From Cytophagales bacterium (lineage in GTDB: Bacteria > Bacteroidota > Bacteroidia > Cytophagales > UBA9547): DNA of 32,686 bases. The stretch is taken from contig JACMRH010000485.1 in assembly GCA_014376535.1 (NCBI GenBank), forward strand, positions 1 through 32,686. The letters are read 5' to 3'. Below, piece after piece: positions 2,825 through 31,459 of this stretch. The notes beneath the pieces are model-generated. The model was given only the letters and a program-made list of their open reading frames with translations. It was not told where the DNA came from and ran no database searches. Position 1 is the stretch's first letter; the number at the start of each line of letters is the position of its first letter. The translations under genes and the position numbers were made by a program.

Positions 2825-3187
2825 TCAGGAAAAGCATTCCTTAGCTACCATTCTTTGGTGATCAATTTTCAAGTTAGATGTACTAATTTTGCTCTTTAAG
2901 ATTTGCAAATCATCACTTACTTTCCTTTCAACTACTTTAGCATAAATCTGAGTAGTTCTAATGCTATTGTAACCAAGCATTTTGCTCACAGTCTCTATTG
3001 GAACTCCATTTGTTAAAGTAATCGTTGTAGCAAAAGTGTGGCGTGCAAGGTGGAAGGTTAAGTTTTTGTCAATCTCACATATGTCACCTATTTCTTTTAG
3101 GTAGCTGTTCAATCGTTGGTTTGAAATGCTAGGAAAAATTGTTCCATGTGCTAAACATGCAGGATGATCTTTATATTTAACTGTAAT
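2825..3187 (-). pseudogene. Tyrosine recombinase, C-terminal catalytic fragment
   Basis: The frame is open from a TGA at 3188-3190 to the stop near 2825, about 120 codons, with no proper start. It encodes the C-terminal part of a Bacteroidota phage-type integrase: HLARHTFAT (box II HxxR), MLGYNSIRTTQIYAKV with the catalytic Tyr. The usual His of LGH is Tyr here. From about 2866 to 3179 the DNA is nearly identical to 30711-31024, and the match stops abruptly at 3179. The N-terminal and core-binding domains are absent, so this cannot be a working integrase. It is a duplicated or rearranged piece of the element whose larger but also broken copy lies at 30793-31459. Confidence 0.85.
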
Positions 3188-13137: not shown

Positions 13138-13172
13138 GTGTTGATCTCCGTATTTTTATTTTGGCCACATTT

Positions 13173-13346
13173 ACCACCCCGGCCTGCGACCACCCCTCCT
13201 TGAAAAGGAGGGAAGTTGTGGGGTGCGACATTTTTAATTATTCTCAAAATCTTAAATTATTAGTGTTTCTCTGCCCAAATTCAAAAATGATTTGAGTTCT
13301 CAAACTCCCCTCCTGCGAAGGAGGGGTGCCCACAGGGCGGGGTGGT
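13173..13346 (-). repeat. TIR element copy A (about 174 bp)
   Basis: Imperfect inverted ends about 29 bp long: the left starts ACCACCCCGGCCTGCGACC and the right ends GGGCGGGGTGGT. Each end also has an internal CCTCC/GGAGG palindrome. The interior motif, read on the minus strand, includes GATTTTGAGAATAATTAAAA, related to the interiors of the copies at 17754, 26310 and 26904. It is oriented opposite to those copies. No protein is encoded. It follows the SGNH gene and its palindromes may act as a terminator. Confidence 0.8.
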
Positions 13347-13469
13347 TGATGGGAGTTCTAATGCGCCACCTTCTATAAATCAATTATAAAAAGGTTTAAA
13401 TGAACAGTGTTCTAATTCTTTATAGTATTTTAAAAAGCTAATACAAGAAGACTAATCTAGTTGGGCAGC

Positions 13470-13580
13470 ACCACCCTATCTGCGACCACCCTCCTTGAAA
13501 AGGAGGGAATTGCGGGAGGCGGCATTTTGACCTGTTCTCAAAACTTTTAGTATTGTCAACTATTTCTGCCGACCAACCCT
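13470..13580 (-). repeat. TIR element copy B, partial
   Basis: One end is present (ACCACCCTATCTGCGACCAC then CTCCTTGAAAAGGAGGG) plus interior matching the family (minus strand: GTTTTGAGAACAGGTCAAAA). The other inverted end is not recognisable, so this is a truncated copy. The rest of 13138-13682 holds only AT-rich DNA. Confidence 0.65.
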
Positions 13581-17510: not shown

Positions 17511-17753
17511 TTTCGATTCGTTATAGACACTATTATAATTTGTGATATAGAGACTCTATTACCTGCACGGAATCTTTTCGTAACGGATTTTAAATAAAAA
17601 AATTTTGGTTTGTCTGGAAGCCAAAATTATGCTTAAGGATCTGATCGAAGACTAAAATGTTCTGTTGTTCAGAAAGAATGGCAGGCTGACGAGGAGATTT
17701 GGAAATGGCGGCTTGGGTAAAAATTGTTCCGCAAATTCCTGAACTCGGCAGCA

Positions 17754-17972
17754 ACCACCCCGCCCTGTGGGCACCCCTCCTTGGCAGGTGGGGAGTTTAG
17801 AACCCAGTTCTTTATAGCATTTTGGTAGAAAAGTCAAACTATGTATGAGATTTTAAGGGCAGGTAAAAATGTCACATTCCGCAATTCCCCTCCTTTTTTC
17901 AAGGAGGGGTGGCTGAAAGCCGGGGTGGTTAATTCCTTTTTTCAAGGAGGGGTGGTCGCAGACCGGGGTGGT
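17754..17972 (+). repeat. TIR element copy C with two tandem right ends
   Basis: The left end is ACCACCCCGCCCTGTGGGC with a CCTCCTTGGCAGG block. The interior has GAGATTTTAAGGGCAGGTAA and AATGTCACATTCCGCAATTC. The right end (AAGGAGGGGTGG..CCGGGGTGGTT) occurs twice in tandem, ending at 17930 and 17972 with a period of about 42 bp. The remainder of 17511-18054 holds the PL11 leader region and no gene; an open frame across the element on the minus strand is not protein-like. Confidence 0.82.
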
Positions 17973-18054
17973 TGATGGGAGTTCTAATGCCGAATCCAGT
18001 AATTAGTAATTACAGACTTACAAAAGATGACTATTTGTGGGATAGGCTTAAGTC

Positions 18055-19031: not shown

Positions 19032-19080
19032 TTAAATTTTCAACAAGCGTCCCCCATCTATTCCAAGTTTGTCTACCCTT

Positions 19081-19117
19081 CCCTGTTTCAAGTTTAGCGA
19101 TAGCGTAACTTGGAACC
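19081..19117 (+). repeat. Left inverted repeat around the RAYT relic
   Basis: The sequence contains AAGTTTAGCGATAGCGTAAC, itself an imperfect palindrome. Its reverse complement recurs at 19757-19793 with one gap and one mismatch. The pair brackets the RAYT relic. Confidence 0.75.
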
Positions 19118-19144: not shown

Positions 19145-19671
19145 TTAAATATAAAGTATATCGATCAAACCTTTGTTTTCAGTTTGATAATCTCTTGCGC
19201 TGCTGTATAAATACTCCTAGGCATTTTCTACAAACCCTGCTTCGACCGGATTTTCATGGATATAATCTAACTTTTGTTCAGTCATCTCAGAATTAAGCAA
19301 ATCTATTGGTTTATTATGTTGAAGCCAGAACTGATAATGTTCATTATTTGGATTATGCTTTCCTGCTCTTTCAAACATCCATATCATCCATTCCCTTCTG
19401 CTTTCACCAGGATAGTCTTTTATGGCCTTTAGTAAAGTTTTGGAAGTGTGCCTCTTCATATCCCTTACTATATCTTCCATTTTATCTCCACTGGTTCCGA
19501 TAATCAAATGCACATGACTGGTCATGATGCACCAGGCATACAATTCTAATCCTTTGTTTTCGATACAATGCTTTAGACTTTCTACTTCTATGTCTTTATG
19601 TTCTTTTCGGATAAATACTTCTATCCAATTAACAGTAGAATAAAAATAAAATAGAGTTTTTTCTGATTTCT
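19145..19671 (-). pseudogene. REP-associated tyrosine transposase (RAYT), decayed
   Basis: The frame is open from about 19671 (LFYFYSTVNWIEVFIRKEHK, then LELYAWCIMTSHVHLIIG) to a TAG at about 19217. In the same frame past the TAG it reads EYLYSSARDYQTENKG up to a TAA at 19145-19147. HVH is the HUH metal motif of Y1 transposases; REWMIWMFERAGK, YQFWLQHN, and YIHENPVEAGFV are typical of the RAYT branch. The usual N-terminus and an ATG are missing and the C-terminus is cut by the nonsense codon, so it is probably inactive. RAYTs mobilise REP palindromes, consistent with the repeats on both sides. Confidence 0.85.
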
Positions 19672-19756: not shown

Positions 19757-19793
19757 GGTTCCATTTACGCTATCGCTAAACTTGAAACAGGAA
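19757..19793 (-). repeat. Right inverted repeat around the RAYT relic
   Basis: GGTTCCATTTACGCTATCGC followed by TAAACTTGAAACAGG is the inverted partner of 19081-19117. Confidence 0.75.
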
Positions 19794-19839
19794 GCAGTTT
19801 AGTAAATTGGAACAGTGAGGGAAGACCCACAACCGACTC

Positions 19840-22800
19840 CTATTCACCATAATTTTGAACTGTTGCAATTAATCCCAACAGATCTTTTTTATGTACTGGT
19901 AGTAACATAAAATCCTTTTCAATTATTGCATTTAATAGTGTAAGGAAGTTGTCTTTGTTGTTAAATTTAGTTATTTCTATCAATAAGGGAAATCCTATTT
20001 TGACTCTAATTGACTCTAATGATGTTTGTAAGTATAATTGCTTGAAAAATTGTGAACATATTGAAGCTTTAATTTGCACACTGCATTTATCATTAGCTAA
20101 AATTTGAAAAGCATACTGAACAGCATTACTTACCTTAAATTGGCTATCATCTACTATTTGATACAAAACTTGCGCACTTAACGGAATTCCTCTGTAGTAA
20201 AATAAGAACAACATAGAAATTGCTTTAGTATATTCCGGCATAGTAATGGAATGAGATCTCCTTCCAAATTCGTATATTGTGTAGGAATTAGTACCATAAA
20301 TACCATATTCTGATAATGCATGAGAACGAAAACGTTCATCATCGCTTATTAGAAGTGCATCATTGTCAATAGATGCATATATTGTATCTAAAAATGACTT
20401 ACCCATTAATTTCTCTCTATCTTGTTTCTGAACTAAGTTAACCCTTAGATCATGACTGCTTGGTAAAATGGCAGTATGCTTAACAATCCATCCCTTTAGA
20501 TTTGCATAAAATTCAATTGTTGCTTTTTGCTGTTCTTCAGAACGCACTTCTTTAACATATTCGCCATTTACTTTTCCTATAGAAAAAGATTGACCTTTGC
20601 TTGCCGAAAACTCTAAATCCTTTAATAAATCATTTATTTCATTTAAAGTAGTTTGACATACATATTTCTTGTTATTCAATCTCTCCAAATATTCCAATGT
20701 TCCAGAATGATGAAATGTTAGTAATGAAGTGATATCTAATAAAATATCTTTTCCAGATTGAATTAATCCAATTCCAGCTTGAAATTCATTAAGTAAACCT
20801 CCTGAGATAATTCCAAGTTCTCGATCACTAACTAGTTTGTGCCAAATCTTTATAGGATTGGTCCCTTTAAGCTTCGAATAAACACCAATTGTTAGTGAAC
20901 CAGCTTTATATAATTTGTTTAATTCATTATCGTATGTTTCATCTTGGTCTAATGCTTCAAAAATTGGTTTTAAACTAGCCTTTATATCATACTCGGACTC
21001 TCCTGTTTGTTTTAGTTTAAAAGATTTAAACCCTTCTATCTCCAGATAATCGCTTTCAAGCAATCGCACACTTTCAGTAAAAGCACTTTGATACTTACTT
21101 ACAATAGATACTATCTGCAAATTAGTTGCAAATCCGAGCTTACGTTCCAATTCAATGATATCTCCCTGAGTTCTCCCCAATAATTTTTTAGACAATGCGT
21201 CGTTAACATCTATTTCATGTCTCTCAGGTCTAACATTTCTACTATTGAGGATTGTTTTTTGTATCTCATTGTTTGTTTCTATATCCCGCAATAACACAGT
21301 TGCATCTATTTCAACTTGTGGCAGATTTATATATGCTTCCATTGTTTTATTGTCAATAGAAACTACAAGGTAGAAATACAATAGATGGACTCTTCCTGTG
21401 CTGTAATTTTCTCTACGAGTTTCATAAGCTATTTCTAAAGCATTAAGTGGTTCGTCAATCTCAAGATATAGCTTTGCTATATCAAATCTTGCCTCCATTG
21501 TTAATGCATCGAAAGACTCTATCCCATAAAGTGTGCTTCTAAGGTTCTCAATATCATTTAAGAGATGATATATCTGTGACAATCTGAATAGAATAACTGT
21601 GTTCTTAGGATCTGAAGACAAATAGTCTGAACATACATCTTTTGCTCTTTTGTAATCACTTATTTGACAATAAATAGTGGCCTCAAAATCAATTAAATAA
21701 TCGCTAAAAATCCTTTGTTCTTTAAGATTGCTAATTAAATTAATTGCTTTTCCATATTCTTTCGCATGAAAATAGGCAAGAAGTAAACTAGATGTATTTG
21801 ATGAAAGGGCATTCCTGTTGGTAATTCTTTCTAATAAGGATATGGCTTCTTTGTATTTGCCTTCTTTATTATAAATAGCAGCTAAATTATTGATGTCGAG
21901 GCTAGATGATGTATCAGTAATTTGGGTAGAAGCTTCTGTAAGGTAAAAATCTAAATTTTGTTTATCATTAAGTTTCCTATATATCCATGATAAGGAAACA
22001 AGAAATGGCAATCTATCGGTTTCCTCTTTTAGAAAGCTTTTTGCCAAGTCAATTGCATCATTATTCTGTTCATTGTAAAACAAAGAATTGATCATCAATA
22101 ATCGAGCTGCACGAACCACATCTCCTTTGGTAACTGTAGAAAGGTCAAGTCCTTTTAACCTGGCAATTGCTTCCGAATACTTTCCCCACTCATAGTATGA
22201 CTCACAGATCGATAATTCGATTTCTAAGTCACTGGGAGCATATTGTTTTGCCGATTCAAGGACCTCGATAGCTTTCTTATGGTTGCCTATTTCAGCAAAT
22301 GCTATTCCCAAATGCTTAATACAATAAGGGTCCTTAGGGCTTAATTCAAATGCTTTTTTAATATCATCTAAGGCTCCTTCTCTATCTCCTAGTATCTTTT
22401 TCCCAACAGCCCTTTTAATAAACCACCATGACTTTGCGTATAGTAAATCTGTATCTTTTAATTCTTCAAAAACATCATCAAATAGCTTTATTGCCTGTTT
22501 GATAATACTAATTCGCTCTGTATCATACTGCTTTGTAATATAGTGGAAAGGATTACTTATGCTTTCCATTAATGTTGATGCTAAAGAGCCTTTAATGTCA
22601 ACGTGTTTACCTTTGGAATTTTCTAAGGATTTTTTTAGCCATTCGATAGCCTTATCAAAAATATCTAAATCTCTTGCTTTGATTCCGAGAGAATAAGCAA
22701 TCTCAGCAGAGCTAGATAACCCGATGGGAACACTATTCAGAATTTCTTGAAAATCAACAGATTGGTTTCTGGATATTTTACAAGAGTTTGCTAATATATT

Positions 22801-23652
22801 AAGAGGATTTTTGCTGATAGTTTTTGCAATAAACTTATCAGCTTCTGCATCTCTAAAAAGAGTGTATGCTAATGCTGTATTTGCAAGAGCGTTTTCATCA
22901 TCTGGGTTATACTGAAGAGCTTTTATAAATAATGGAGCCGCCTTTTCAGTTTGATTAAGTTCCAAGAAACAATATCCCCTTGCAGATAATACTTTATATT
23001 TCACTGTATCATCTGCTAAATCCCATCTTGTATCTTGAAAAGAATTTAAATAATCAAGAGCTTGTTTAGGATTATTTTTACTCCTTAATTGTTTCGGGTA
23101 TTCTAAATCTTTTAAGTATTCATCTTTTCTACTTAACAGATCACTTGACAAGGAAGCTGTATTGTTAAGTATTTGTTTTGTAACCTGCTGAATAGAATCT
23201 ACAGCATTTTTACCTTCAATCTCCTTGGGACTTCGGGTCTTGTTAACAACTATATTGAATTCTTGCCTGAAATCCTCAATCTCTTTTTGAAGATCTACGG
23301 ATTGATTTTTAAGAACTCGTAGTGTTTGATTGGTATGTAAATGACTATCTAAGGTAATCTGAAATGACCAATTATTATTTTCATAAAGTTCTTTTTGAAA
23401 AGCTTCTTGTACTTCTCTAATATTAAAAAGTTTTATTATACCTTCATTCTTATTTTGCTCGACAATTAGATTATACAAAGTAGCTATATATATTGAATTG
23501 AAATCTTCTTTTAGTTCAACTTTGTAAATTTTTCTAAGTAATTTGTAGGAGTGAAAATCCTTCTCAAGCCTGCTTTTAGTAAGCTTGAACAAAAATCCAG
23601 CAGCTTTAATAGCAGGACTTATTGCATGTTTAATTAAAGTTTCCAACATCAT
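19840..23652 (-). CDS. Large TPR / GreAB-C-like / PIN nuclease protein (TPR-GreAB-C-PIN type)
   Basis: The 1270-residue cytoplasmic protein has no signal peptide. Residues 1-200 are helical with a coiled-coil-like stretch. About 205-770 are tetratricopeptide repeats (ARGYCFLELNQTEKAAPLF, AEIGNHKKAIEVLESA, YNKEGKYKEAISLLERI). About 815-860 resemble the GreA/GreB C-terminal domain (LSKKLLGRTQGDIIELERKL). About 970-1130 form a PIN-like nuclease with candidate acids D973 (LLDITSLLT), E1005 (LNEINDLL), D1089 (FLDTIYA) and D1104/D1105 (ISDDERFR). A helical tail follows. This order matches the TPR-GreAB-C-PIN architecture described in predicted conflict systems (recollection). It starts 26 bp after the helicase gene, in the same operon. 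Predicted role: RNA-cleaving effector or sensor. Confidence 0.8.
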   Translation of the reverse strand: MMLETLIKHAISPAIKAAGFLFKLTKSRLEKDFHSYKLLRKIYKVELKEDFNSIYIATLYNLIVEQNKNEGIIKLFNIREVQEAFQKELYENNNWSFQITLDSHLHTNQTLRVLKNQSVDLQKEIEDFRQEFNIVVNKTRSPKEIEGKNAVDSIQQVTKQILNNTASLSSDLLSRKDEYLKDLEYPKQLRSKNNPKQALDYLNSFQDTRWDLADDTVKYKVLSARGYCFLELNQTEKAAPLFIKALQYNPDDENALANTALAYTLFRDAEADKFIAKTISKNPLNILANSCKISRNQSVDFQEILNSVPIGLSSSAEIAYSLGIKARDLDIFDKAIEWLKKSLENSKGKHVDIKGSLASTLMESISNPFHYITKQYDTERISIIKQAIKLFDDVFEELKDTDLLYAKSWWFIKRAVGKKILGDREGALDDIKKAFELSPKDPYCIKHLGIAFAEIGNHKKAIEVLESAKQYAPSDLEIELSICESYYEWGKYSEAIARLKGLDLSTVTKGDVVRAARLLMINSLFYNEQNNDAIDLAKSFLKEETDRLPFLVSLSWIYRKLNDKQNLDFYLTEASTQITDTSSSLDINNLAAIYNKEGKYKEAISLLERITNRNALSSNTSSLLLAYFHAKEYGKAINLISNLKEQRIFSDYLIDFEATIYCQISDYKRAKDVCSDYLSSDPKNTVILFRLSQIYHLLNDIENLRSTLYGIESFDALTMEARFDIAKLYLEIDEPLNALEIAYETRRENYSTGRVHLLYFYLVVSIDNKTMEAYINLPQVEIDATVLLRDIETNNEIQKTILNSRNVRPERHEIDVNDALSKKLLGRTQGDIIELERKLGFATNLQIVSIVSKYQSAFTESVRLLESDYLEIEGFKSFKLKQTGESEYDIKASLKPIFEALDQDETYDNELNKLYKAGSLTIGVYSKLKGTNPIKIWHKLVSDRELGIISGGLLNEFQAGIGLIQSGKDILLDITSLLTFHHSGTLEYLERLNNKKYVCQTTLNEINDLLKDLEFSASKGQSFSIGKVNGEYVKEVRSEEQQKATIEFYANLKGWIVKHTAILPSSHDLRVNLVQKQDREKLMGKSFLDTIYASIDNDALLISDDERFRSHALSEYGIYGTNSYTIYEFGRRSHSITMPEYTKAISMLFLFYYRGIPLSAQVLYQIVDDSQFKVSNAVQYAFQILANDKCSVQIKASICSQFFKQLYLQTSLESIRVKIGFPLLIEITKFNNKDNFLTLLNAIIEKDFMLLPVHKKDLLGLIATVQNYGE

Positions 23653-23678
23653 ATATCAGCTTTTTAAAACAATTTTCA

Positions 23679-25874
23679 CTAAACAAAAATCCTTTCAAAC
23701 ACCCCCACAATCCGAAAACTCAAATCCTCCCCACCCACAACCACAATCTCCTCAAATCCTTCCTCATAAGACAAAGGCTTTAAAATGATGGATTCATGTT
23801 TCCAGCCTTCTTCAGTCACGGTTTTTTTGCTGTGATATTCTTTTACTGTGTAGCGGGAACCAGTATCAGGGTCTTGGAGACGGGTAAATTCTACCAATAC
23901 AATCTTTCCGTTTCTGCTTCCTCCTTCGTCCTGTCTGAACAGGCAGTAGGAGCCGTTGGGGATCTTTTTATTCATGGATTCTCCCACCACTTTGCAGACA
24001 AACATTCCTTTTTTTGCGGCTACATTAAATGGAGGTTCTATCCATTCTACCATTTCATGAATCTGCAGGTCACTGAAACTTCCTGCTGCTGCGGAGATGT
24101 CAACTAATGGGATGGCATTTACATACGGGATCACTTCATCAAAAGGAATTACTCTGAATGGTTTGGGCTGTTCGTATTCCCGGATGTGTTCTTTCAAATA
24201 CTCCCGCAATTCGTGATTGCAGGCATAGATAAATGCTCCTCTTATGCCCCGGTACAGAATGGTTTTGTAAATATTGATGACATAGGCTTTTAACTCCTCC
24301 GGATCAGAAATTCCGTTTTTGCCGTTCTTGTCAAAATAGAGCTTAGGGTCTATTTCTATTTTGCCAGTTTTTGGGTTGTAATTAATTTCCCGGCCAAAGA
24401 TGACCCCGGTATAATTGAGGTCGTAGCCTTGGGTGGTATGGATACAGCCAATTTCTTTAAATGCAGTGGGAGAATTGATCCAGTCCTTATCGGTCTGGTT
24501 CCACTGGAACTGCAAACCTTCCAGCTCTATGTCTATCGCGCTTTTGTTTTCTTTAGATGCCCAGGGCCAGGAATATCCTGCTACTAAGCGGCATAATCCA
24601 TATTCAGTTTCCTTCCTATCCAGTTCTTTGTAAAGATCAGGAAGAGAATCAAATACCAGGATTTCGTAATCCTTCGGATCATAAAAGTACTTCCGGGGTC
24701 TTTTAACATGCAACAGTTCATCCACAAAGGTGATGTAATCCACTCCGCCCTTTACCCGCATCTGGGATTTGAGCATGAGCATCATGGTTCTATTGTCATC
24801 CAGAAGTTCTGAAAAATCCTCTTCGCTTACGTCAGAAGGTTTTACAGATTGGGCAGGGTCATAGAAAAAGATCTGGTTCTTACTGTTTGCCAGGATCCAG
24901 TCCAGTTCATTGCCATCGTCTCCTAATCCTAGTTTTTGGTTGTTCTTTTTAAAAGCACCCATCCAGCTGATGTTTTTGTACTGGCGCAGGCGGTGTGCCT
25001 CGTCCACAATCAGCAGGTCGTACTTTTCCTTCAGTTTAAAAGTATCGGAAGGATTAAGTACCATGGAAGCTTTCAGTCCCGGTATTTTAGAAAAGACACT
25101 TTGCAAAGATTCCCTGAGGGAAGTCATGGCTACTACCAGCCCGATCTTTGCGTTGGGATATTTCTTCTGGAATTGTTTGATGTAAAGCACTTCACGCAAT
25201 TCCTCGTCATTGTATTCCTTATAACCAGATTCTGAAACATCAGAAGACAAAAGTTTAATCAGATATGTCGCCAGGATGGTCTTGCCTGTACCCGCACTGC
25301 CTCTTACAAAAATCTGATTGGCTTCTTTAAAGCATAATCCTTCCAGGATCTCCAAGACTGAATTGTACTGATCTTCATTTAAAGATTTATAAGGAGAGTA
25401 TTTGAAAAGCTCTGAGTTCTCAATTTCAGTCAGGGACTTTGAAACGATTTTCTTCTGAACCAGCTTGTTCCAGATTTCTTTAAATAGGTCCTTGTACAAA
25501 TCCTGCTGATAATACTGGTGATTGATCAGTCCGAAGTTTCCATTCAGCAGTTTGTAAGTACCTTCAGAAGTAATGTATTGAATGAGGTTGGATTCTATAT
25601 CCAGCGTAGCGGACTTGTTGAACTTGTCACTTCCGATGATGGAGATCTTGTTCAGTTTGGTGGTTTTGTCAGGATTGGCAAGATGGTTTTTAATCCTGCT
25701 TCCTGCGTTGGTGGATTCGCCCACATAGGCCAGCTTCTCCTTGTCATTTTGTATGAAATAGACCAAAGGCCACTGGTTCTTCACCCAGACATTCTGCTCA
25801 ATGTTTGGTAAAGCTTCTTTGCTAAAATCATAGGGTTCGGATACTTCTACTGAAATATCAAAGGATACTTTCAT
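23679..25874 (-). CDS. GIY-YIG / DUF2075 superfamily-1 helicase / S24 LexA-type peptidase fusion
   Basis: The 731-residue protein has three parts. Residues about 35-110 are GIY-YIG-like (PLVYFIQ, LAYVGESTNAGSRIKNHL). About 160-590 are a DUF2075 P-loop helicase: Walker A GSAGTGKT with K198, Walker B LLIVDEAH at 287-294, DPAQS motif III, and HTTQGYDLNYTGVIFG followed by LYRGIRGA as late SF1 motifs. About 605-731 are an S24 (LexA/UmuD) fold: S633 in VVGESMNKKIPNGSY and K678 in YTVKEY, a possible Ser-Lys dyad. The start overlaps the MazG stop codon (ATGA), so the two are coupled. Likely a DNA or RNA remodelling and sensing component of a defence operon; inferred. Confidence 0.87.
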   Translation of the reverse strand: MKVSFDISVEVSEPYDFSKEALPNIEQNVWVKNQWPLVYFIQNDKEKLAYVGESTNAGSRIKNHLANPDKTTKLNKISIIGSDKFNKSATLDIESNLIQYITSEGTYKLLNGNFGLINHQYYQQDLYKDLFKEIWNKLVQKKIVSKSLTEIENSELFKYSPYKSLNEDQYNSVLEILEGLCFKEANQIFVRGSAGTGKTILATYLIKLLSSDVSESGYKEYNDEELREVLYIKQFQKKYPNAKIGLVVAMTSLRESLQSVFSKIPGLKASMVLNPSDTFKLKEKYDLLIVDEAHRLRQYKNISWMGAFKKNNQKLGLGDDGNELDWILANSKNQIFFYDPAQSVKPSDVSEEDFSELLDDNRTMMLMLKSQMRVKGGVDYITFVDELLHVKRPRKYFYDPKDYEILVFDSLPDLYKELDRKETEYGLCRLVAGYSWPWASKENKSAIDIELEGLQFQWNQTDKDWINSPTAFKEIGCIHTTQGYDLNYTGVIFGREINYNPKTGKIEIDPKLYFDKNGKNGISDPEELKAYVINIYKTILYRGIRGAFIYACNHELREYLKEHIREYEQPKPFRVIPFDEVIPYVNAIPLVDISAAAGSFSDLQIHEMVEWIEPPFNVAAKKGMFVCKVVGESMNKKIPNGSYCLFRQDEGGSRNGKIVLVEFTRLQDPDTGSRYTVKEYHSKKTVTEEGWKHESIILKPLSYEEGFEEIVVVGGEDLSFRIVGVFERIFV

Positions 25875-26200
25875 AACTCATTGTATTTATCCGCCTTCCC
25901 TTTTGCCTTCTCCACCGGATATTTCAATGCGTTTTCTTTGATCTTGTCAAGCATTACCTGTTTAATGTCCAGCCCTAATTTACTGGCCAGTAAAAATGAA
26001 AAAGCCAGCACATCGGCCAGCTCTTTTTTAATCTTTTCTATGTCTGCGTCTTCGGCTTTTTTCCAGAGAAATAATTCCAGCAATTCTCCTGCTTCTATGC
26101 TGATAGCCAGTGCTAAGTCCTTGGGATTGTGGAACTGGTCCCAGTCCCGGTCCTCGTTAAACTTTTGAAGTACTTTGGTTATTTCTTCGATGTCGGTCAT
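25871..26200 (-). CDS. MazG-like nucleotide pyrophosphohydrolase
   Basis: The 109-residue protein starts at the ATG at 26198-26200; a TTG one codon upstream is not needed. It has the all-alpha NTP pyrophosphatase motif: RDWDQFHNPKDLA, then E36xxE39 in SIEAGELLELF and E60xxD63 in KELADVLAF, which bind magnesium. Family members hydrolyse (d)NTPs to monophosphates and pyrophosphate in the cytoplasm. It is the first gene of the operon and overlaps the helicase start by ATGA. In this setting nucleotide depletion or clearing of modified nucleotides is a possible role, which is inference. Confidence 0.92.
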   Translation of the reverse strand: MTDIEEITKVLQKFNEDRDWDQFHNPKDLALAISIEAGELLELFLWKKAEDADIEKIKKELADVLAFSFLLASKLGLDIKQVMLDKIKENALKYPVEKAKGKADKYNEL

Positions 26201-26309
26201 CAAAAAAGTGGAGTTTTACAATTGTAATTCTTTTTGTTTGTAATAGCAATTAGCTAGTTAGATGAAGTAAGATAATTGTGCGAATTGCAGGATGCTGGAG
26301 TCCGCAACA

Positions 26310-26484
26310 ACCACCCCGCCCTGCGGGCACCCCTCCTTCGCAGGAGGGGAGTTTTAGAACCCAATTCATTTTGGCATTTAGGAAGAAACTGTTATCTATT
26401 TGCGAGATTTTGAGGACAGTTAAAAATGTCTAATTCCGCAATTCCCCTCCTTTTCAAGGAGGGGTGGTCGCAGACCGGGGTGGT
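26310..26484 (+). repeat. TIR element copy D, with single right end
   Basis: The left end is ACCACCCCGCCCTGCGGGC with CCTCCTTCGCAGGAGGGG; the interior includes TGCGAGATTTTGAGGACAGT and AATGTCTAATTCCGCAATTC; the right end is AAGGAGGGGTGGTCGCAGAC followed by CGGGGTGGTT. About 175 bp with no coding capacity. It ends 18 bp from the DUF559 stop codon. Confidence 0.85.
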
Positions 26485-26501
26485 TAATACTGCAAGCTGG
26501 G

Positions 26502-26858
26502 TTATATTTTAAAATTCCGTTTTATCTCTTCCAGAACATGGTCCAAAAACTTAAATACAGTTTCATTTTCAAACCTGATCACCTTTATTCCTATACTATT
26601 TAATACTTCTGTTCTTTCTTCATCATAAGCCATTCCTTCTTCCGTAAAATGCCCTGCGCCATCCAACTCAATTGCTAATTTCTCAGAAGGGCAATAAAAG
26701 TCTATAATGTAATTGCCAACGCTGTGCTGTCGCCTGAACTTACGGCCTTCCAATTGATTGTTCTTCAAAAGGGTCCATAGTTTGGCTTCAGCTGGCGTAA
26801 GTGTTTTTCTTAGTTGTAATCTTTTGTCTTTTAGTTTGGGAAGGTTATTAAGTTTCAT
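26502..26858 (-). CDS. DUF559 (Vsr/PD-(D/E)XK-like) endonuclease-domain protein
   Basis: The 118-residue cytoplasmic protein shows the DUF559 pattern: LRKTLTPAEAKLWTLLKNN, GRKFRRQHSVGNYIIDFYCP, KLAIELDGAGHF, DEERTEVLNSIGIKVIRFEN, and a final helix. The D in IIDFY and the E and D in AIELDG are the candidate metal ligands of a PD-(D/E)XK or Vsr-like nuclease fold. The length is normal for the family (about 115-130). It is separated from the MazG operon and closely bracketed by TIR element copies D (18 bp away) and E (45 bp away), both in the same orientation. A link with those repeats is plausible but unproven. Confidence 0.88.
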   Translation of the reverse strand: MKLNNLPKLKDKRLQLRKTLTPAEAKLWTLLKNNQLEGRKFRRQHSVGNYIIDFYCPSEKLAIELDGAGHFTEEGMAYDEERTEVLNSIGIKVIRFENETVFKFLDHVLEEIKRNFKI

Positions 26859-26903
26859 TTTTGGAATATTGGACTTAATACAAATGTATGAATTAAGGCA
26901 TCA

Positions 26904-27164
26904 ACCACCCCGCCCTGCGGGCACCCCTCCTTGGCAGGAGGGGAGTTTTAGAACCCAATTCATAATTCTATTTTGGAAGAAACTGTCAACTATTTGTGAG
27001 ATTTCGGGGACAGGGAAAAATGTCTAATTCCGCAACTCCCCTCCTTTTTTCAAGGAGGGGTGGTCGCAGACCGGGGTGGTTATCTCCTTTTCAAGGAGGG
27101 GTGGTCGCAGACCGGGGTGGTTATTTTCTCCTTTTCAAGAGGGGTGGCTGAAAGCTGGGGTGGT
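26904..27164 (+). repeat. TIR element copy E with three tandem right ends
   Basis: The left end and interior match copy D closely (TTTGTGAGATTTCGGGGACA, AATGTCTAATTCCGCAACTC). The right-end unit (TCAAGGAGGGGTGG..CCGGGGTGGTTA) occurs three times, ending at 27080, about 27121 and 27164; the last unit is diverged (GGCTGAAAGCTGGGGTGG). A fragment, TCTTTTCAAGGATAGG, follows. No gene lies in 26859-27304 apart from this element and the leader of the next gene. Confidence 0.85.
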
Positions 27165-27304
27165 TATTATCTTTTCAAGGATAGGAAGTTTTAAGAACCC
27201 AATTTCTTATGGCAAATAGTAAAAGATATTTCTTCAATTCCGTTACATTTTCAAAAAATATAAGTATTAGTTAAGATTAATTAATTCCTGGACAACAATA
27301 AGTT

Positions 27305-30675: not shown

Positions 30676-30700
30676 ACGGGAAGCTTATCTTCCCGTTTTT
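30676..30700 (+). terminator. Second terminator-like hairpin
   Basis: ACGGGAAG (30676-30683), CTTAT loop, CTTCCCGT (30689-30696), then a run of T. It sits between the GH43 terminator and the integrase relic. Confidence 0.75.
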
Positions 30701-30792
30701 GCTTGGTCAATTTTTAAATTAGAAGTGCCAATTTTTTTCTTTAAGATTTGCAAATCATCACTTACTTTCCTTTCAACTACTTTAGCATAAAT

Positions 30793-31459
30793 CTAAGTAG
30801 TTCTAATGCTATTGTGACCAAGCATTTTGCTCACAGTCTCTATTGGAACTCCATTTGTTAAAGTAATCGTTGTAGCAAAAGTGTGGTGTGCAAGGTGGAA
30901 GGTTAAGTTTTTGTCAATCTCACATATGTCACCTATTTCTTTTAGGTAGCTGTTCAATCGTTGGTTTGAAATGCTAGGAAAAATTGTTCCATGTGCTAAA
31001 CATGCAGGATGATCTTTATATTTCTCAACAAGATCTAAGGCCTTTGGCAAGAAAGGCACTTTTACGCTGGTATCTGTCTTTTCCCTTGAAGTAAATAGCC
31101 AATACTCTTTATCAATCCCAATTCGGAGATGGGAGGGGGTAAATTTCATAACGTCGGTATAAGCCAGCCCAGTGTAATAGCTGAAAACAAAAAGATCTTT
31201 TACTTGCTGAAGCCTACCAATAGAGAATTCTTTGTGCTTAATAACTTCAAGTTCTTCTTGAGTTAAATAACCTCTTGTGTTTACTTCCTTTGGCCATGCC
31301 TTTGCCCACATGCCAGGATTCTATTTCTATATCCATTTTAATAGAAATGTCGACCCTCACTGCATCAACTGTGATTCTGGCATAGATGGGTGCTTTTCCG
31401 TTTTTGACTTTGTATCTACGGAGATAAAAAATGATTCCGAAGGTGTTGGTGGTTTTCAT
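30793..31459 (-). pseudogene. Tyrosine recombinase (Bacteroidota integrase type), broken
   Basis: The start (31459 to about 31290) encodes the Arm-binding domain: MKTTNTFGIIFYLRRYKVKN, GKAPIYARITVD, SIKMDIEIESWHVGKGMAK. It then shifts frame into AWPKEVNTRGYLTQEELEVI, and the roughly 100-residue core-binding domain normally between them is missing. The catalytic domain continues (FVFSYYTGLAYTDV with the box I region, SREKTDTSVKVPF) to HLAHHTFAT, where the conserved Arg of HxxR is His, and ends at TAG at 30793-30795 just before IYAKV, so the catalytic Tyr is lost. The original gene was probably about 400 residues. It lies next to a tRNA gene, a common integration site. Confidence 0.92.

Follow-up and report, generated by a model that had tools for sequence, protein, structure and literature searches.

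The window analysed here, a stretch of 32,686 nucleotides, is contig C320 of a 4.68-Mb assembly. It contains a gene of the DUF559 (PF04480) nuclease type, encoding 118 amino acids with a predicted Vsr-like EDxHD fold (26502-26858, reverse strand; Pfam E = 2.3e-34), located between two palindromic elements on the forward strand. Repeat comparison and folding indicated that element D (26309-26485, 177 bp) consists of a left end, a middle of ~90 bp and a right end. Element E (26903-27081, 179 bp), identified by repeat comparison, has the same make-up and orientation, and the two are 89% identical over 151 nt. Two surplus right ends in tandem lie next to E (27084-27165, forward strand); the first ends at 27122 and the second, which is degenerate, at 27165. 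D is separated from the stop codon of the DUF559 gene by 16 bp and E from its start codon by 44 bp. The initial annotation had given these gaps as 18 and 45 bp, which needed correction, but had correctly placed D and E in the same orientation and described an element-nuclease-element unit of about 0.85 kb; we measured ~0.86 kb for D, the PF04480 gene, E and the surplus right ends (to 27165). Further copies in the window are element C plus one surplus right end (17753-17973, forward strand), element A, which is inverted relative to D and E (13172-13347, reverse strand), and a putative remnant of an element interior (13498-13543, strand not assigned; 72% identity to 13204-13249).

Three parts make up each end of the window element: the outer box, AACCACCCCG or CGGGGTGGTT, is accompanied by a small hairpin and by a strong one (CCCCTCC...GGAGGGG). 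In D, the left end runs from the AACCACCCCG box through a GCCC-TGC-GGGC hairpin to the CCCCTCC hairpin, and the right end from the GGAGGGG hairpin through a GGTC-GCA-GACC hairpin to the CGGGGTGGTT box. Folded as single-stranded DNA, D reached -47 kcal/mol, compared with -21.4 +/- 2.8 for shuffled sequences (z = -9.3). Across 28 distinct ends from several genomes, the stem of the small hairpin varied (GCCC/GGGC, GGTC/GACC, GGCT/AGCC, GTCC/GGAC, GGTAC/GTACC and others) while its pairing was kept in nearly all of them, with a triloop that was usually GCA, GAA or AAA. Such covariation speaks for a role of the end in its folded form. An Rfam search of the window element gave sub-threshold matches only, all to anti-hemB and in the left part of the element (26313-26372, E = 0.036; 26907-26974, E = 0.008). 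Judged by this likeness alone, the Burkholderia RNA anti-hemB might be the same kind of element as that of the window.

Several other features were present in the window. A defence-like operon (19840-26203, reverse strand) encodes a MazG-like protein, a Schlafen-group helicase with GIY-YIG and S24 domains (AbiO/Nhi-like) and a TPR-GreAB-C-PIN protein. A 300-bp direct repeat with 95% identity (2848-3147 and 30693-30992), located inside two tyrosine-recombinase fragments, brackets ~28 kb and may be the mark of an island. A RAYT-like Y1_Tnp remnant (19217-19543, reverse strand; E = 1e-3) has inverted repeats of its own (19058-19108 and 19765-19815), which are unrelated to the DUF559 elements.

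The function of the DUF559 domain, which is widespread in bacteria, is unknown. On the evidence of its profile match and predicted structure (AlphaFold pLDDT 91), the window protein is a DUF559 member of the Vsr-like EDxHD nuclease family. The catalytic E-D-ExD-H residues are present; D53, E64, D66 and H70 do not vary among 79 relatives, and E24 is kept in 78 of them; nuclease activity is inferred from these features. The model matched the N. gonorrhoeae structure 3hrl and the homing endonuclease I-Bth0305I (3r3p), and more weakly Vsr (1vsr). The dN/dS of DUF559 genes was ~0.05-0.25, indicating purifying selection. In Legionella, DUF559 segments are recombination hotspots (PMC12308824). The fold likeness to Vsr is compatible with an enzyme of repair or defence, active in Vsr-like mismatch repair or in restriction, which would lie near the repeats by chance or have its regulatory or target sites in them. 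The Caulobacter DUF559 protein VsrA, which causes the SOS response in cells without a methyltransferase (PMC12907096), and a weak PADLOC similarity of the DUF559 protein to a methyl-directed enzyme point the same way. However, a domain search of the window genes found no methyltransferase partner adjoining the DUF559 gene, and a repair or defence role leaves unexplained the cognate pairing, the in-frame insertion in many enzymes and the presence or absence at the same site in close relatives that are described below. We regard this role as improbable.

A profile search detected only three PF04480 genes in the source genome. The protein encoded on contig C319 is 81% identical to the window protein, and two tandem elements of the window type lie directly after its gene. 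The third protein (contig C226) is ~40% identical to the other two, and its gene has a different two-hairpin element on both sides. The core pattern of the window element had 30 matches in ~9 clusters in the source genome, and the reversed control had none.

To compare DUF559 genes with other genes, we took Bacteroidia DUF559 loci, each at most 20 kb long, from a search of the whole class, with the other genes at the same loci as controls, and a flank similarity threshold of a local score of at least 25 (control 95th percentile ~16). Matching flank repeats were found at 42 of 76 stand-alone DUF559 genes (55%) and at 22 of 917 neighbours (2.4%). Pyrimidine-arm hairpins lay within 300 bp on both sides of 35/76 DUF559 genes (46%) compared with 8/917 neighbours (0.9%), and on any side of 62/76 compared with 147/917 (16%). 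Within 250 bp of DUF559 genes, the density of hairpins was 3.3 per kb; past 2.5 kb it was mostly 0-0.1 per kb. Some repeat-bearing control genes merely adjoin the DUF559-linked elements. Thirteen of the 76 DUF559 genes had no pyrimidine-arm hairpin within 500 bp, and some of these still had flank repeats. A multi-phylum sample was drawn by protein-only scan with one genome per species (80 loci, at least 14 phyla). In this sample, hairpins occurred on both sides of 36/73 DUF559 genes (49%) and 10/525 neighbours (1.9%), and flank repeats at 32/73 (44%) and 19/525 (3.6%), respectively. Per-genome sign tests for the Bacteroidia enrichment gave p values from 3e-9 to 6e-6. Elements were also present at 5/5 DUF559 loci read in a plasmid collection (Photobacterium, Picosynechococcus, Neisseria gonorrhoeae, Azospirillum and Deinococcus), and beside all six stand-alone DUF559 genes in Vibrio. 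No other conserved gene was found inside the units at the Bacteroidia and multi-phylum loci. The check put forward in the initial annotation, enrichment of the element beside DUF559 genes relative to other genes, was thus strongly positive in Bacteroidia and across at least 14 phyla.

As a main explanation, ordinary transcription termination by the hairpins, or the chance occurrence of palindromes beside a short gene, is refuted by these counts. Such hairpins are not rare, as the 16% of neighbour genes with at least one of them within 300 bp indicates, but hairpins on both sides are ~50 times commoner at DUF559 genes. Terminators also cannot account for the long flank repeats, the tandem arrays, the copies at a distance or the hairpins that are translated within open frames, and we give this proposal almost no credence.

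Flank sequence was related to the identity of the neighbouring nuclease. DUF559 pairs from the same genome that were at least 60% identical shared flank sequence in 6/6 cases (score of at least 20), whereas most pairs below 50% identity did not. Among between-family pairs, flank sharing (score of at least 25) was 0.3% below 40% identity and up to 34% above 60%, and protein identity and flank similarity gave a Mantel correlation of 0.246, with 0/2000 permutations as high. Some high-identity pairs represent orthologous loci, but the trend is still seen between families. By these comparisons, the type of element tracks the nuclease clade, between families as well. The window element type was present in 12/296 Bacteroidia genomes from nine families, and 12/12 of these had PF04480 genes, which overall occurred in 141/296 Bacteroidia genomes (Fisher p = 1e-4 for co-occurrence). 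The mean number of PF04480 genes was 3.8 in element-positive Bacteroidia genomes versus 0.92.

These data bear on the main rival explanation, that the nuclease gene is a homing parasite of existing palindromic repeats, which would themselves be spread by a RAYT, an IS transposase or recombination. The closest characterised relative of the protein is the homing endonuclease I-Bth0305I (PMC3943268), many stand-alone genes lie between element ends and not inside one element, and two Vibrio genomes have the element with no DUF559 gene, all of which would suit a parasite. However, 0/296 Bacteroidia genomes had the window element type without DUF559, and element sequence tracks the nuclease clade. 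In-frame units, described below, lie at sites that are repeat-free in most relatives, and the repeats that flank the RAYT remnant of the window are its own and differ from the DUF559 elements. We therefore consider homing on existing repeats unlikely, though less so than a repair or defence role.

Filled and empty versions of the same site were found in three groups. Between folD and nupC, 14 Vibrio species have an element-free spacer of 74-202 bp, one has a gene-less element array, and V. jasicida has element arrays together with DUF559. The V. jasicida locus (L136, 5394-5838) contains tandem units of ~103 bp, each a left end plus spacer without right ends, and the end of the DUF559 gene there matches the end of the array spacer. 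In Deinococcus psychrotolerans, the paaD-paaZ interval holds a DUF559 gene within inverted ends of ~55 bp; the corresponding junction in a relative measures 83 bp. Filled and empty alleles of the E. coli fepB-entC site differ by ~180 bp and are otherwise 98-99% identical. No clear target duplication was detected in the element copies or between the filled and empty E. coli alleles. We read these sites as gains without a reconstruction of ancestry; an outgroup supports this reading for Vibrio alone, and the differences could in part be losses.

In E. coli, the DUF559 gene is ycjD, located in the sapF-fabI interval in K-12 with elements directly behind it, and K-12 has ~20 copies of the ycjD-associated element. 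The gene was present in 3,366 of 5,426 E. coli genomes. In a spread sample, ycjD-positive genomes had 14-33 element matches (median 22) and ycjD-negative genomes 2-19 (median 5), a comparison that is confounded by clonal lineages. Two candidate sites were rejected: the ycjD locus is not a clean empty site, as the ycjD-negative strains read have an efflux-gene island between sapF and fabI, and yhjE-yhjG is too divergent to be used as an insertion site.

Among the Bacteroidia class matches listed, 73 of 150, or about half, were in open frames of at least 300 amino acids. Pfam and NCBIfam identified the host proteins as LeuRS, IleRS, methionine synthase (MetH), RecJ, RecG, acetyl-CoA synthetase (Acs), IcmF, methylases and others. 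The DUF559 domain was mostly in the middle of the host, with the hairpins at the domain edges translated in frame. A pyrimidine-arm hairpin was present on at least one side in 45 of the 53 in-frame units read, and the full order of outer box, hairpin, nuclease, hairpin and outer box in 28 of them. Large DUF559 open reading frames, of which 0/9 had hairpins at their ends, proved invalid as a negative control: in these genes the hairpins lie internally, on either side of the inserted domain. No intein domain was detected at E <= 1e-3 around the in-frame units in four host proteins, and the units do not read as self-splicing introns or inteins, as their flanks are hairpins translated in frame.

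Among 30 leuS genes read from one genus, three species had a DUF559 unit, three had a solo hairpin end and the rest had neither. The interrupted LeuRS scored 927 bits against a cutoff of 548 and was the sole leuS match in its genome (G086); from this score and the lack of a second copy, the LeuRS carrying the insert is apparently functional. LeuRS variants with 18 amino acids at the insert site were also observed. These may be old footprints or normal variation, and we make no claim for them. Clustering of in-frame nucleases by site was weak (median identity 0.51 for the same site vs 0.48) and was not used as proof of homing. Two Eco57I-type methylase genes (L333 and L334), in genomes from two families, have DUF559 inserts at the same site that are 92% identical. 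This identity suggests a recent transfer, of either the host gene or the insert.

We interpret the observed association and cognate pairing of element and nuclease, the covariation in the stems, the conservation of the catalytic residues, the purifying selection, the co-occurrence, the insertion polymorphism and the in-frame units in single-copy enzymes as a mobile system, in which a palindromic two-ended element is spread by its cognate DUF559 nuclease. We put the probability of this reading at roughly 70%. The ends of an element are mutually inverted, each with an outer C- or G-rich box and a strong pyrimidine-arm hairpin, joined in the window family by a small hairpin. In the proposed mechanism, the hairpin ends that the nuclease most likely recognises are those of its own family of elements; it would nick or cut DNA, and element copies with or without the gene would reach new sites through a break and host repair or replication. 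The gene is placed between two elements, as in the window, inside one pair of inverted ends, as in Deinococcus, or with its ends in frame in housekeeping enzymes. The action of the protein on the element ends and the break-and-repair route are both inferred, in the absence of binding, cutting or movement data. The initial annotation suggested a possible role of the nuclease in mobilising or maintaining the repeats, comparable to that of RAYTs for REPs. This suggestion is supported by the enrichment, cognate pairing, co-occurrence, insertion polymorphism and in-frame units; its biochemical step remains unproven. We also favour, with less confidence, the broader proposal of a pan-bacterial type of mobile DNA, in which the DUF559 nuclease is the sole encoded enzyme and moves cognate hairpin-ended elements to intergenic sites and, in frame, into essential genes (leuS).

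To our knowledge, no mover has been identified for many families of C/G-rich palindromic repeats. Should the DUF559 nuclease be what spreads the repeats, then a kind of mobile element that relies on a restriction-like nuclease has gone unnoticed, including in E. coli K-12 (ycjD). Many common pyrimidine-rich palindromic repeats of bacteria, among them the K-12 copies that accompany ycjD, would then be explained. The copies that lie in frame in leucyl-tRNA synthetase and methionine synthase would be selfish DNA that resides, without any splicing, within important proteins. For annotators, it is relevant that many 'DUF559-fused' enzymes are insertion hosts. A search of the open-access literature, which did not cover subscription papers, found no report tying DUF559 to palindromic repeats; for this reason, and because of the unrelated enzyme and the in-frame residence, we call the system new.

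Within the system, E. coli ycjD and the window gene have a common element architecture but different element sequences, so that ycjD is a homologue with another repeat family. Like insertion sequences and MITEs, the elements have terminal inverted repeats and short non-coding copies beside a coding relative; unlike insertion sequences, they have no transposase, and their sole protein is a nuclease of 110-150 amino acids. No clear target duplication was seen in the copies and alleles compared. Rickettsia palindromic elements also place palindromic DNA in frame in protein genes (PMC10969869), a likeness that applies to the class and not to the window copy. They are ~150 bp long with no encoded enzyme described in that paper, whereas DUF559 units encode a nuclease and are present in at least 14 phyla. 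The fold and catalytic motif are common to EDxHD homing endonucleases such as I-Bth0305I, but DUF559 has no intron or intein, and many copies of the palindromic ends with which its gene travels lack the gene. A parallel in way of working, although not in descent, exists with REP/REPIN-RAYT (TnpA-REP) systems. RAYTs are thought to drive the spread of REPs. In both cases, short inverted palindrome pairs occur genome-wide, a dedicated nuclease gene is flanked by copies, and the type of repeat is paired with the nuclease. The enzymes differ, the RAYT being an HUH Y1 transposase (Y1_Tnp, PF01797) and the DUF559 enzyme a PD-(D/E)XK, Vsr-like protein, and the DUF559 element ends are larger, with two hairpins, and their units also reside in frame inside enzymes.
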